A stretch of 35,885 nt of DNA from the NCBI GenBank assembly GCA_002256685.1, contig NQJH01000001.1:1-35885 (forward strand), in the 5' to 3' direction. The notes under the pieces were generated by a model. It worked only from the letters and a program-made list of their open reading frames with translations. It was not told the origin of the DNA and did not search any database. A program made the translations under genes and the position numbers. This document shows, in pieces, positions 25,085 through 35,885 of this stretch; the first letter of the stretch is position 1, and every line of letters starts with the position of its first letter. The stretch comes from Methylococcaceae bacterium NSP1-2. GTDB lineage: Bacteria > Pseudomonadota > Gammaproteobacteria > Methylococcales > Methylomonadaceae.

Positions 25085-25363
25085 GTGAGTCAATCATCAA
25101 AAGGCGAATTAATCGTAAAAAGCGTAGCGACGGCTGTCGTTGCAACCACTATTGTAGAAACGGGTCTAGGTTTTAGTAAAACCCTCGCTAAGCAGCCTAT
25201 TATTTTGTTTGGTTTAGGTTTAGTAGCCGGCTATTTTACCCATAAATACCGTAAAGAAATTATCACACTTGCGGGTCATACTACTGAACAAAGCAAAGAT
25301 TTTATCCTGCAACAAAAAAATAATGTCAGCGAGTTGTTGGCAGAAATTCAAGACAATAAATAG
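25085..25363 (+). CDS. Small single-TM protein, paralogue of the protein at 33148-33408
   Basis: The 92-residue protein starts at GTG with a good AAGGAA site seven bases upstream. It has a polar N-terminus, one TM segment (PIILFGLGLVAGYFTHKY), a positive patch KYRKEI, and an amphipathic tail (KDFILQQKNNVSELLAEIQ). The same plan and many identical residues occur in the small protein beside the P-type ATPase. It superficially resembles YtxH-like proteins. As the last gene of the EPS operon, 10 bases after the glycosyltransferase, it may anchor or organise a membrane complex; that is inference. No catalytic or metal-binding residues (Cys/His clusters) are visible. Confidence 0.75.
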   Translation: MSQSSKGELIVKSVATAVVATTIVETGLGFSKTLAKQPIILFGLGLVAGYFTHKYRKEIITLAGHTTEQSKDFILQQKNNVSELLAEIQDNK

Positions 25364-30950: not shown

Positions 30951-32243
30951 TCACACTGTAGCGATAATCACCACCTGAGCAAAGCCACCGCCGACCGTGC
31001 GAAAATTGGTAGTTTGCCCTTGATATAACCGGCTACTGGCTAATAATATTTGTTCCCCGTAAGTATACAAACGTAGATCAAATTTAAGCGTTGTTGACGG
31101 TAAGTGTCGCTCGCTGGGTGGCACTAAGGTTTGCGCAACATAATCACTGTGCAGAATCTCTGAAAATACTCGCTTAGTGAGTTTATCACCGCGATAAACC
31201 GCTTTGCTACCGTAGCCTTTATTGGGTTTGAAAAATAGTTGCTTACGCTTTGCCCACAGGGTTTCGGCATCATTTTTATCAACACAGATGGTCGGCGCAA
31301 TACCGGCTAACAACGTGTTTATGGTGTCGCACTCCACACCTAATTCTTGTAATAGATTCCGATTTGTTAATATCGCTAAGTTTCTTTTATCGGCGTACAG
31401 CGCGTGTGCCCTTGGATGAGGCGTAACCACCACAGCGTTAGCAAGATAGGCTGCGCGTAATGCTTGTTGTGCCGGTTCATCGAAGCCAAAATCCGTTAAG
31501 CGATTATAGATAAGATCAATCCGTAAATTACCATGCCAAACAGCATTATCACGGTAAATAAGCGCGCTAGGATCACAGACAACTGCGTTAATGTTATGCC
31601 GTTCAAAAAGTGTCTGAAATAAAATAAATTCGGGTAGTAAATATTGGCTATCTGGATTTTCATCGACTATAGCAATAGAACGTAACGGTTGTTGACCGCG
31701 TTCCAGCTGCCATTCGTTATGAAACATGGCGATAAAAGCGGCTTCTGGATCAGCTGTTTTGTGAGTTGTTAATTCAGTATGGATGGTTTTTTTCGATTGT
31801 ATTAATAAGGCGTTGAGTAACGCACCACCCGCATTGGTATTAATTTCTATCAGTTGTGAACCGGTTGGCGTTAAATGAAAATCGTAACCCAGAAAAACGC
31901 CGTGTGCTTTAGGAATAAACGTGGCTGAGTGCGGTGAGTAGGCTAAAACATGTTCTTGATAACTAGGTAAAGCAATCACTTTTTCTATTGCGGCAATAAG
32001 ATGACGCTGTTTTTCAATAATGGTGTCGCAAACAAACACCGCCACATCGGCGAAAAGATGCGGACGGTCTTCCACCAGCATTTGATAGAGCCTTGCGTTA
32101 CCCTGTTTAACTAAGTTGGCGCGTAAAGCGTCTTTATCGATTGCAATACAACGACACTGGTCATTAAGCTGTTGGGCTTTCTGCTCACAGGTATAATCGA
32201 AGTCAAGTTGACCGGTAGTTTTAGAAAGGTTGGGCGATTTCAT
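30951..32243 (-). CDS. ATP-grasp-like protein of unknown substrate
   Basis: The 430-residue soluble protein resembles the ATP-grasp group that includes glutathionylspermidine-synthase-like and circularly permuted members. Motifs that support this are [33 protein letters not shown] (a Lys and Gly-rich nucleotide-binding stretch) and [30 protein letters not shown] (acidic and Asn metal-binding region near the C-terminus). Such enzymes ligate a carboxylate to an amine with ATP. The substrate is not evident. It is the first gene of the minus-strand group, 88 bases upstream of mscL, and has no obvious ribosome site. I do not recognise a named gene. Confidence 0.65.
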
Positions 32244-32520: not shown

Positions 32521-32760
32521 ATGAATCAGGAATTAGCACAGTCAGACGTTAAAAGAAACAATAGCGGTTCTTTGCTATTGGGAACTGGTTTAGCAGTGGC
32601 ATCGATGATTTTAGTCCCCGCATTGGCTATGCGGCTGGGTTTAGGTGCGAGTTTGACAGGAGCGTTAAGAATCGCATTAATGAAAGCATCAAGTCGTGCC
32701 GTCTGTGGTAGCCCAACAACGCCTAATGAATCAACTTTGTCAGATAACAGTTGTCGCTAA
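32521..32760 (+). CDS. Small membrane protein of unknown function
   Basis: The 79-residue protein is preceded by a strong GAGGTG site five bases before the ATG. After a polar N-terminus there is one hydrophobic stretch (SLLLGTGLAVASMILVPALA) followed by a semi-hydrophobic amphipathic segment (LGASLTGALRIALMKA) and a polar tail with two Cys. I do not recognise a family. The good ribosome site and its position as the first gene of the metal cluster argue that it is real. Confidence 0.6.
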   Translation: MNQELAQSDVKRNNSGSLLLGTGLAVASMILVPALAMRLGLGASLTGALRIALMKASSRAVCGSPTTPNESTLSDNSCR

Positions 32761-32775
32761 GTCTTGCCATACCAA

Positions 32776-32882
32776 TAAACTTTGTTAATCGTGGAATCTT
32801 CAATAAATTAGATGAATGCTCTGTTACCAGCGGTTTAGGGAATGGTCTCGCTTTCTGTTGTTGTCAAAGGTAAACTTTGTTA
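32776..32882 (+). repeat. 12-bp direct repeat upstream of the metal-binding protein gene
   Basis: TAAACTTTGTTA occurs at 32776-32787 and again at 32871-32882, 95 bases apart. The second copy falls inside the spacer of the predicted promoter, so the pair could be binding sites for a regulator. Chance cannot be excluded in AT-rich DNA. Confidence 0.35.
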
Positions 32883-32889
32883 GCATAAT
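32861..32889 (+). promoter_or_regulatory. Predicted sigma-70 promoter for the metal-binding protein gene
   Basis: TTGTCA (32861-32866) and CATAAT (32884-32889) are 17 bases apart, each with five of six consensus matches. The start site would be near 32896, about 38 bases before the ATG at 32934. Confidence 0.55.
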
Positions 32890-32933: not shown

Positions 32934-33107
32934 ATGAGCGAAGCTAAAAAAACGTGTGATCTTTGCGGCTTGACCGTTGAAGTACCAAATTTCACGTTAA
33001 AAACTAAAGAGGGCGAAAAATCATTTTGTTGCGAAGGCTGTCTAGGTATTTACCAGATGCTACATGAAATTGAAGAGACGAGTGAATCCGACAACAAGCA
33101 GTCGTAA
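32934..33107 (+). CDS. Standalone CxxC/CCxxC metal-binding mini-protein (like the PF12156 domain of P-type ATPases)
   Basis: This 57-residue gene reads MSEAKKTCDLCGLTVEVP, then SFCCEGCLGIYQMLHEIEE, and ends in a polar tail. The pattern C-x2-C-G-L-x-V ... F-C-C-x-G-C-x-x-x-Y matches the N-terminal metal-binding domain that precedes HMA in CcoI/FixI-type copper ATPases (the PF12156 or TRASH-like type), here as a separate protein. The five Cys could bind Zn2+ or Cu+. It has its own predicted promoter and an AGG-containing leader, and lies 41 bases before the small TM protein and upstream of a P1B ATPase. It may be a chaperone or sensor for that pump; the family match is by eye. Confidence 0.8.
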   Translation: MSEAKKTCDLCGLTVEVPNFTLKTKEGEKSFCCEGCLGIYQMLHEIEETSESDNKQS

Positions 33108-33147: not shown

Positions 33148-33408
33148 ATGAAACACGCTAAAGTAGCTAACGAAATCATTAAAGGGTCTATGACTTCAGC
33201 AACGATACACAGTGGGAGAAGATTGATGGGTAATATTGCTAAACATCCAGTGTTAGTTTTTGGCTTAGGGGTAGCAGCTGGCTATCTGGTTTACAAATAC
33301 CGTAAAGAAATCGTTTCTAGTACGACTAAAGTCGTGGATGCGGGTAAAGATTTTGTCTTACAACAAAAAGAAAATCTGGAAGACATTATTGCGGAAACCA
33401 AGGAATAA
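33148..33408 (+). CDS. Small single-TM protein, paralogue of the EPS-operon protein at 25085-25363
   Basis: The 86-residue protein has an N-terminal amphipathic part, one TM (PVLVFGLGVAAGYLVYKY), then the positive motif KYRKEI and a tail KDFVLQQKENLEDIIAETKE. Shared with its paralogue are K-x-P, (L/V)FGLG, AGY, KYRKEI, KDF, LQQK and a final acidic amphipathic helix. Layout and size recall mycobacterial PacL (DUF1490) scaffolds, which also sit beside P1B ATPases, and YtxH-like proteins, but no direct homology can be shown by eye. Starting at ATG after a weak AAGAAAA site, it probably acts as a membrane anchor or scaffold. Confidence 0.78.
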   Translation: MKHAKVANEIIKGSMTSATIHSGRRLMGNIAKHPVLVFGLGVAAGYLVYKYRKEIVSSTTKVVDAGKDFVLQQKENLEDIIAETKE

Positions 33409-33483: not shown

Positions 33484-34119
33484 ATGACTCGCATCACTAT
33501 GTCTATTCAAAAAGAATTTGTACTGCGTTATCAAATAGACGGGCATGTCAGGTTTCAAATACCCGCGCGGATTTGTGAAACGACTATCGCTAAAGCAATC
33601 ACCGATGGCATTTTGGCAATAGACGGTGTGTATCGCGTCAATCTCTATCGTAACCAACATAAATTGTCGATTCGTTTTCAAGAATCAGTGTGTGATTTTA
33701 AGACACTGGCACGGCAACTATCTGAGTTGCTTGCTGATTTAGAAAAAAACGGTGAGTTTGAGCAAAAAACGGTTGCCGAAACGGGACGAATCTTGGCGTG
33801 GAAAGAACGCGCCAAAGCTAAATTAAATAGTTTTAAAGCCACGCGCTGGGCGAAAGAAAAATACGGCGATGTGAAAGAAACCGTGCAGGCGGCTAAAATC
33901 ATTACTAAGTTGGGTATGAAAAAACCCTCAGCGTTTGTTAATGATCCCGAAAAAGCCATGATTGATTTTTTCAATGATATTTTGGTGCTGTTTCTCATTA
34001 GACTCCATTGGACAAATATCACCCAACAATGGTTATTAAAGCCGCTTAAATATCGTTATGAATGGATGGCTTTATTTTATATGTTCTTCTTATTGGTACG
34101 TTCGCGTAAAAAGAAATAG
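33484..34119 (+). CDS. HMA2-type (heavy-metal-associated-like) protein with C-terminal TM segments
   Basis: The 211-residue protein has an N-terminal ferredoxin-like HMA2 domain: LRYQIDGHVRFQIPAR, then AIDGVYRVNLYRNQHKLSIRF and a helix. It lacks the CxxC of true HMA domains. A long basic helical middle (about residues 85-150: WKERAKAKLNSFKATRWAKE) follows. The C-terminus is hydrophobic (FFNDILVLFLIRLHW and WMALFYMFFLLVRSRKKK), probably two membrane-associated helices. Such HMA2 proteins commonly accompany P1B ATPases with an extra N-terminal HMA2 domain, as is the case here. The role is unknown; docking with the ATPase is possible. The start at ATG 33484 abuts a terminator T-run, so ATG 33499 may be the real start. 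Confidence 0.75.
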   Translation: MTRITMSIQKEFVLRYQIDGHVRFQIPARICETTIAKAITDGILAIDGVYRVNLYRNQHKLSIRFQESVCDFKTLARQLSELLADLEKNGEFEQKTVAETGRILAWKERAKAKLNSFKATRWAKEKYGDVKETVQAAKIITKLGMKKPSAFVNDPEKAMIDFFNDILVLFLIRLHWTNITQQWLLKPLKYRYEWMALFYMFFLLVRSRKKK

Positions 34120-34176: not shown

Positions 34177-34198
34177 AAAACAGCTTTAGCTGTTTTTT
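34177..34198 (+). terminator. Intrinsic terminator after the HMA2 protein gene
   Basis: AAAACAGC-TTTA-GCTGTTTT is a perfect 8-bp stem (34177-34184 and 34189-34196) ending in TTTTTT, 57 bases past the stop. It works in the plus direction. Confidence 0.6.
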
Positions 34199-34200
34199 AG

Positions 34201-34220
34201 CCAATAGCTAAAGCTATTGG
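34201..34220. repeat. Second hairpin of a tandem pair
   Basis: CCAATAGC-TAAA-GCTATTGG is a perfect 8-bp stem with a 4-nt loop, directly beside the terminator and built on the same centre (AGC-TTTA/TAAA-GCT). The two resemble a dimeric palindromic repeat of the kind scattered between bacterial genes. Confidence 0.45.
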
Positions 34221-34310: not shown

Positions 34311-35885
34311 ATGGACATGCAAACCTTCACCCCGACACACTACAAGCTCATTCACCAATTAACCAGACGAATCAGAATCATTTCGCCTGTGTTAAAAAAC
34401 GATGCTGAACGCAGCACCATTTTTGAAATCATTCTCAAAAAAAGACCTGAAATAAAAAAAGTTCGTTCAGTCGTTGCCTTGGGTTGTGTGATTATTGAAT
34501 TCGATCCAGCAGGATTGCCGAAAAAGAATTTATTTATTTTACTAGATGCCGTGTTGGGCAATATTGCTCAAAGGCAGGATAGTTCTCACACACCGCATAA
34601 AAAAGTATTCGATGGCAAAGTAAACGAAATAGACCTCGCGGTGGAAGGCATGAGCTGTGCCTCATGTGCCTTGCTGATTGAAATGGTACTCAAGCGTGAT
34701 GCCAGAGTAAAACAAGCCAGCGTTAATTTCGGCACATCCACGCTTACGGTACACGGGCAATTATCCAAAGCCGATGTAGACGAAAAAGTAGCGGGGTTAG
34801 GTTATAAAACCTATGCAATGGACACACTATCGCAACGCAGAAACTTAATAGATAAAGAATACCAACGCATTGCCGATGCTAAACGCCGTTTTATCTGGTC
34901 TAGTGTATTAAGTTTTCCTGTCGTCGTGGTCGGTATGAGTATGCCCAGTACCCGCTGGTTACATTGGATGCAGTTCGCGCTCACCACGCCTGTGGTGTTT
35001 TGGGCAGGTCGGTCATTTTTTATCAAAGCGTGGCGATTAGCCAAACAACGCACGGCGAATATGGATTCACTGATTGCCTTGGGTGTGGGTTCAGCTTACG
35101 GCTACAGCTTACCCGCGCTACTCAATCGCAGAGGACATCTGTATTTTGAAGCAGGCGCTGCAATTATCAGCTTTGTATTATTGGGGCGATTTTTAGAAGA
35201 ACGTGCCAAAGGCAAAGCGGGTGAAGCGATACGCCAATTGGTCGATTTACAACCGCAAACCGCTACCCGCATAACCGATGATAAAGAAACCATTGTTGGT
35301 ATTGATGACATCATCATTAATGACATCCTATTAGTCAGACCCGGTGAAAAAATTCCTACTGACGGTATTGTGATACAAGGGCTATCCACCGTTGATGAAT
35401 CAATGGTGACGGGCGAAAGTGTGCCAGTCATTAAAGACATTGGCAATAAAGTTATTGGCGGTTGTGTGAATGGTAGCGGCGTGTTACGCATACGCGCCAC
35501 CGCTGTCGGCATGGATACCGTATTAGCGGGCATTGTTCACATGGTCGATCAAGCACAATCCACTAAATTACCGATACAAAAACAAGTCGATAGAATTTCA
35601 GCGGTGTTTGTGCCGTCCGTGATGGTGTTGTCTGGATTAACAATGGCAGGTTGGTTATTGGTCGGTGCGCCGTTTGGTTTCGCGTTTGGCAATGCAATTA
35701 CTGTATTACTGATTGCTTGCCCTTGTGCATTAGGTTTAGCAACACCTGCCGCGATTATGGTCGGTGCTGGACAAGCAGCGCGGGAAGGCATTTATATTCG
35801 TAACGGCGAAAGCTTAGAAACTGCCGCTAAACTCAACGTTATCGTATTCGACAAAACGGGAACGATTACCGAAGGCAAACCCAAA
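34311..35885 (+). CDS. Cu+-type P1B ATPase (CopA-like) with N-terminal HMA2 domain, 3' end outside window
   Basis: This membrane pump expels or delivers metal with ATP; 525 codons are visible before the window ends. Residues 10-85 form an HMA2-like domain without CxxC ([20 protein letters not shown] ... [16 protein letters not shown]). A second, true HMA domain carries GMSCASC (Cys116, Cys119). TM helices begin near 195, with the conserved NMDSLIALG (250-258). The actuator domain has PGEKIPTDG and [12 protein letters not shown]. The metal-binding CPC motif (470-472) lies in [16 protein letters not shown], and DKTGT (Asp514) is the phosphorylation site. CPC with GMSCASC points to Cu+ (P1B-1 group), though HMA2-bearing relatives may have other ions. 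It follows a terminator and palindrome, so it may have its own promoter. The start could be ATG 34311 or 34317. Confidence 0.93.

Follow-up and report, generated by a model that had tools for sequence, protein, structure and literature searches.

A free 57-residue PF12156/TRASH-type protein in a conserved block with a P1B-1 copper ATPase in Methylococcales

The window analysed here, 35,885 nucleotides long, is a complete contig from a Methylococcales MAG that stands close to Crenothrix. It carries a block of five genes in the order A79, B57, C86, D211, and a P1B-1 copper ATPase (E), the last of which is truncated by the contig end. The features of the block are:

32521-32760, + strand: A79, small membrane-type protein of 79 aa with one hydrophobic stretch (21-homologue alignment)
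32858-32886, + strand: promoter-like block TTGTTG-17-TAGCAT, kept in the window and five relatives
32934-33107, + strand: B57, free PF12156/TRASH-type protein of 57 aa (ORF, profile, alignment, dN/dS)
33148-33408, + strand: C86, protein of 86 aa with one hydrophobic stretch and an amphipathic GKDFVLQQKENLEDI tail (ORF, homologues)
33484-34119, + strand: D211, HMA-like membrane protein of 211 aa; a start at 33499 is likelier by homology
34182-34220, no strand assigned: dispersed palindromic repeat in the D211-ATPase gap, at 18 genome places with up to 3 mismatches
34311-35885, + strand: E, P1B-type copper ATPase, 525 of ~816 aa up to the contig end

The second gene of the block, B57, is an ATG, 57 codons, and a stop with boundaries exactly at 32934-33107 (+), and translates to MSEAKKTCDLCGLTVEVPNFTLKTKEGEKSFCCEGCLGIYQMLHEIEETSESDNKQS (57 residues). 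As the frame is open for just 4 further codons upstream (61-aa frame), the ATG is nearly forced, and an AGG(T) Shine-Dalgarno-like stretch precedes it in most of the six sequences formed by the window and five close relatives. Cysteines at positions 8, 11, 32, 33, and 36 form a C-x2-C ... C-C-x2-C pattern that the window contains once, against no occurrence in 100 order-1 shuffles (ORFs of at least 50 aa). All five cysteines are invariant in an alignment of 29 members from Methylococcales and Nitrosomonadales, as are I39, Y40, M42, L43, and E45 within the nearly invariant GIYQMLHE stretch that follows the last cysteine. Thus, both the standalone 57-residue domain and the cysteine layout proposed in an earlier note on this DNA hold. 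A short frame such as this could be a chance ORF or an unexpressed remnant without function; we give this next to no probability, since it is refuted by a dN/dS of 0.05-0.13 against three close relatives, which indicates strong purifying selection, by conservation as far as Nitrosomonadales, and by the invariant cysteines.

Profile comparison assigns B57 to PF12156 (ATPase-cat_bd) with 30.7 bits against a cut-off of 27, and with 27.8 bits in the genome search; the lack of any profile match, which the earlier note had named as a ground for dropping its proposal, did not occur. All 29 diverse homologues match the same family, and B57 covers only positions 1-40 of the 86 in the profile. The domain is unfused, a 57-aa ORF with its own stop rather than the N-terminus of a P-type ATPase, and consists of a single domain and a short polar tail without a DNA-binding region. 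An archaeal TRASH profile is matched by 23 of the 29 homologues at E-values up to 0.1. PF08394 is matched by nine at the same limit; among the scores listed, the best is 25.8 against a cut-off of 27 (locus L080), and B57 of the window gives no match. The AlphaFold model comprises two strands and one helix (mean pLDDT 77.7). Its fold matches are weak (best E 0.13). Ribosomal zinc fingers of L24e type, a MYM/TRASH domain, and the NosL copper chaperone are among them; although none is significant alone, they agree in suggesting a TRASH-superfamily treble clef. Solved structures gave chance-level sequence matches only. B57 is a real gene and a member of the PF12156/TRASH family.

B57 is not isolated, because it sits 40 nt upstream of the next gene in a conserved block, and the free-standing gene of the earlier note is thereby set aside. 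The near-consensus promoter ascribed to it gives weaker support: a TTGTCA-17-CATAAT site (10/12 consensus) is present at 32861-32889, but a consensus scan finds 3 sites of this grade versus 5.7 in shuffles, and the CATAAT -10 hexamer is not kept in relatives. This site overlaps, with an offset of 3 bases, the TTGTYR-17-TAGYAT block that is common to all six aligned sequences, the window included, and that is, judged by conservation, the more credible promoter. We therefore replaced the lone gene with its own promoter by a block-level promoter, the conserved block upstream. From the gene spacing, this element would drive B57, C86, D211, and possibly the ATPase, and we infer that the block is co-transcribed.

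The gene order is kept across 78 B57-bearing loci, which come from two overlapping locus sets so that some genomes are counted twice. Where the contig leaves room, C86 lies downstream of B57 in 74/75 loci, D211 in 72/73, and the ATPase in 43/44; A79 is found within 1 kb upstream in 65/76 loci. In full-length loci, the ATPase is usually followed on its 3' side by a membrane protein of the DsbD_2 family (PF13386). The same block is found in relatives from Nitrosomonadales, where A79 lies ~4 kb upstream, the gap after it being filled by genes for an FtsX-like permease, an ABC ATPase, a multi-span protein, and a TlpA-like thioredoxin, and where the D211 and ATPase ORFs overlap in several loci. A search for plasmid-borne copies returned one weak match for B57, an archaeal ATPase, and none for D211.

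Three of the partners are small proteins that belong to no described family. A79 matches no known family in Pfam; it shares the stretch LLLGAGLAxASMILxPALAxRxGLGASLTGALRIALMKAS and 15 invariant columns among 21 aligned homologues. C86 likewise has no significant Pfam family. D211 consists of an N-terminal HMA-like ferredoxin domain, a linker, and C-terminal hydrophobic helices; the best matches to its HMA-like fold include CopZ, RAN1, and MerP, yet this domain carries no conserved CxxC and the protein is poor in cysteine.

Several further elements were observed around the block. The 39-nt double palindrome at 34182-34220 forms a strong hairpin (-28.8 kcal/mol in a 65-nt context) and is present at 18 sites of the 2.7-Mb genome (up to 3 mismatches) versus 0 in a reversed control; L033 and L034 carry different inverted repeats in the same D211-ATPase gap. 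A second C86 homologue of 92 aa (E 2e-17) is encoded at 25085-25363 (+) behind polysaccharide-type genes, and L035, L037, and L038 have such a copy ~3 kb upstream of A79. A divergent gene at 30951-32243 (-) encodes a 430-aa protein with a weak match to circularly permuted ATP-grasp, close homologues of which flank the block in several relatives.

The ATPase within the window shows an HMA_2-like domain followed by an HMA domain and the CPC motif, while the YN(x)4P and MxxSS regions lie beyond the contig end. Full-length homologues contain all three elements of the P1B-1 signature (CPC, YN(x)4P, MxxSS) and score above the TIGR01525 and TIGR01511 (copper ATPase) cut-offs; the L033 homologue, for instance, reads YNVVAIP and MALSSVSVIVNSLRL and passes TIGR01511. 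The N-terminus of these homologues is made up of an HMA_2-like domain and a CxxC HMA domain, and a domain search found PF12156 absent from it. In a midpoint-rooted tree of 53 rows, in which some fused rows are long-branched, the operon ATPases group with two paralogues in a clade of 100/100 support. This clade is sister to the group with E. coli CopA (support 95/94), and the ATPases with a fused PF12156 domain fall on the opposite side, all ten fused rows being joined at 93/87. Paralogues of the operon ATPase occur in several genomes of the order (L111, L112); that of the MAG itself appears in two pieces (G000:C343:4879-7271) with a TGA inside the second.

The domain type had been named correctly in the earlier note as that of the N-terminus of CcoI/FixI-like ATPases, whereas its tie to CcoI/FixI does not stand. 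B57 shares both the PF12156 family and the C-x2-C ... C-C-x2-C layout with the fused N-terminus of CcoI-type P1B-1 ATPases and could on these grounds be a detached CcoI/FixI domain serving cbb3 oxidase assembly, but the distribution of the genes makes this very improbable. Among 151 Methylococcales genomes, 110 encode short free B57-like proteins, all listed matches lying in short frames, and a profile search found fused PF12156 frames of 502-834 aa in 11. The cbb3 gene ccoN exceeds the cut-off in 10 genomes, all of two other families, f7 and f8, and 9 of these have the fused CcoI ~1 kb from ccoN. None of the 10 has free B57, and none of the 110 free-B57 genomes has ccoN above the cut-off, a pattern that follows families, so that the 151 genomes are not independent events; in the genome of the window (MAG 88% complete) the best ccoN match, 3.1e-6, is below the cut-off. 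As free B57 occurs without ccoN across the order, cbb3 assembly is removed as the role of the free protein. Moreover, free domains separate from fused domains in a comparison of only 44 columns, B57 matches only the first 40 of the 86 profile positions, and the partner ATPase lacks PF12156 and falls into a different clade beside CopA. A split CcoI is rejected on the ATPase tree together with the absence of ccoN.

Both forms can coexist: G075 and G234, the latter from another family of the class, have free and fused PF12156 proteins, and in G234 (L130, L131) the free-B57 block is accompanied by two fused PF12156 ATPases that differ from each other. Of 369 genomes sampled across the class, 26 show matches, which are free in 6 and fused in the rest. 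We also considered a strict tie to particulate methane monooxygenase; pmoA-type genes are found in 122/151 genomes of the order, and the tie is not supported as a rule, since several of these lack B57, such as G009, G011, G037, G058, G061, and G147.

A second free PF12156 protein, B2, is encoded in the same genomes, between prmA and dusB where the locus spans both. It resembles B57 in length (~58 aa) and in its identical cysteine layout, but has no adjoining ATPase and forms its own clade. In 13/14 loci, B2 adjoins an undescribed membrane protein of ~175 aa, 65-90% identical and with no Pfam or NCBIfam match (B2 and its neighbour at 411-587 and 601-1128 in L002; further loci L145-L157).

One of the closest counterparts of B57 is archaeal. 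Sulfolobus metallicus has CopM proteins with a TRASH domain, 56 and 71 aa long, whose genes are co-transcribed with that of the copper-induced CopA (PMC3595675). Like B57, CopM of the copTMA cluster is a small, unfused protein of TRASH type whose gene accompanies that of a CPC-type copper ATPase. B57 differs in being bacterial and of PF12156 type, with Arc_trans_TRASH below the cut-off, and the block differs in its additional A79, C86, D211, and DsbD_2 protein. Further, no CopT-type regulator was seen in the neighbourhood of B57. In another reading, B57 is a copper sensor which uses its TRASH domain to regulate the operon or the pump. TRASH domains are known from metal-responsive regulators such as CopT (PMC3595675), and the first N-terminal site of Rhodobacter capsulatus CcoI, whose motif differs from PF12156, is reported mainly to regulate the ATPase activity and to take copper from other donors (PMC8475189). 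With its single domain, short polar tail, and no DNA-binding region, B57 is nonetheless an improbable sensor.

Free metal-binding domains and small membrane partners of P1B ATPases also have bacterial precedents. According to database annotation, the N-terminal domain of E. coli CopA is additionally made as a free Cu(+) chaperone, CopA(Z), which, as proposed for B57, presents the N-terminal metal-binding domain of a pump in trans. CopA(Z) has an HMA fold and arises by frameshifting within copA, whereas B57 is a TRASH protein with its own gene. PacL1 is a small membrane protein that holds a P1B ATPase in platforms (PMC9374683). C86 and A79 resemble it as small single-span membrane proteins beside such an ATPase, but the CtpC partner of PacL1 is P1B6-like and that of B57 is P1B-1. 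The likeness of C86 to PacL is one of layout only: neither a Glu/Ala repeat nor a C-terminal metal motif was seen, and membership in the PacL family was rejected (DUF6110 best E 0.044 in 2/24 members; DUF1490 none). The open-access literature searched, studies on copper in methanotrophs included, yielded no description of the block, and PF12156 was not found by name in it. The kind of gene is known, free TRASH copper chaperones having been described in archaea; what is new to us is a free domain of PF12156 type in a conserved bacterial block that also encodes three undescribed small partners.

B57 is part of a fixed conserved block with a P1B-1 copper ATPase and is not linked to a cbb3 oxidase. 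In the reading we favour and consider reasonably probable, B57 is a Cu(I)-binding treble-clef protein whose target in trans is the copper ATPase encoded three genes downstream. As a small cytoplasmic protein, it would bind a metal ion, most likely Cu(I), via the C-x2-C ... C-C-x2-C cysteines, and either hand copper to the ATPase or gate its activity. This would parallel in trans the role ascribed in cis to the additional N-terminal site of CcoI-type pumps. The small membrane proteins A79 and C86, together with D211, may provide the membrane platform on which B57 acts. The ligand is read as copper because of the ATPase family, not from B57 itself, and we infer that the cysteines bind Cu(I), that B57 contacts the ATPase, and which way the copper passes. 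Against a copper role, the ATPase has a CxxC HMA domain of its own, which a CopZ-like chaperone could load with copper.

Structural zinc is common in treble clefs, and B57 might instead be a structural zinc adapter that docks A79, C86, D211, and the ATPase into a membrane complex without carrying metal. The resemblance of its fold to ribosomal L24e and to MYM/TRASH zinc fingers speaks for such an adapter, as do the GIYQMLHE stretch, which lies outside the metal site, is nearly invariant, and looks like an interaction surface, and the precedent of PacL proteins as small scaffolds of P1B ATPases. We nevertheless regard it as rather unlikely, as the fifth invariant cysteine beside the treble-clef set would be superfluous for structural zinc and the TRASH relatives whose genes accompany copA are regarded as copper chaperones.

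The surroundings of the block fit the favoured role of B57 in copper handling: a DsbD_2 gene downstream and, in Nitrosomonadales, TlpA-like thioredoxin and ABC genes upstream provide a copper-site context, and neighbours of the TlpA-like, DsbD_2, and NosL types are expected around copper-site assembly. In the distant gammaproteobacterial genome G396, a more distantly related free TRASH gene lies between TlpA-like and DsbD_2 genes, followed by NosL (108.8 bits; region L092 1474-2890), with the operon ATPase not adjoining.

To our knowledge, the route by which cytosolic copper reaches the cuproenzymes of methanotrophs is poorly understood. As a speculative extension, which we think unlikely as it stands, B57, A79, C86, D211, the ATPase, and the DsbD_2 protein would together make up a complex dedicated to copper export. 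This complex would supply methanotroph cuproenzymes of the periplasm or the intracytoplasmic membranes, particulate methane monooxygenase among them, and B57 would be its copper gate on the cytosolic side.

Within one order, PF12156 occurs both fused, alongside a cbb3 oxidase, and free, without one; consequently, annotation should not treat PF12156 as a marker of CcoI. The block is widespread in Methylococcales and pairs a free TRASH protein with a CopA-side copper pump. Together with its three small proteins without a described family, it offers a short list of candidate genes.
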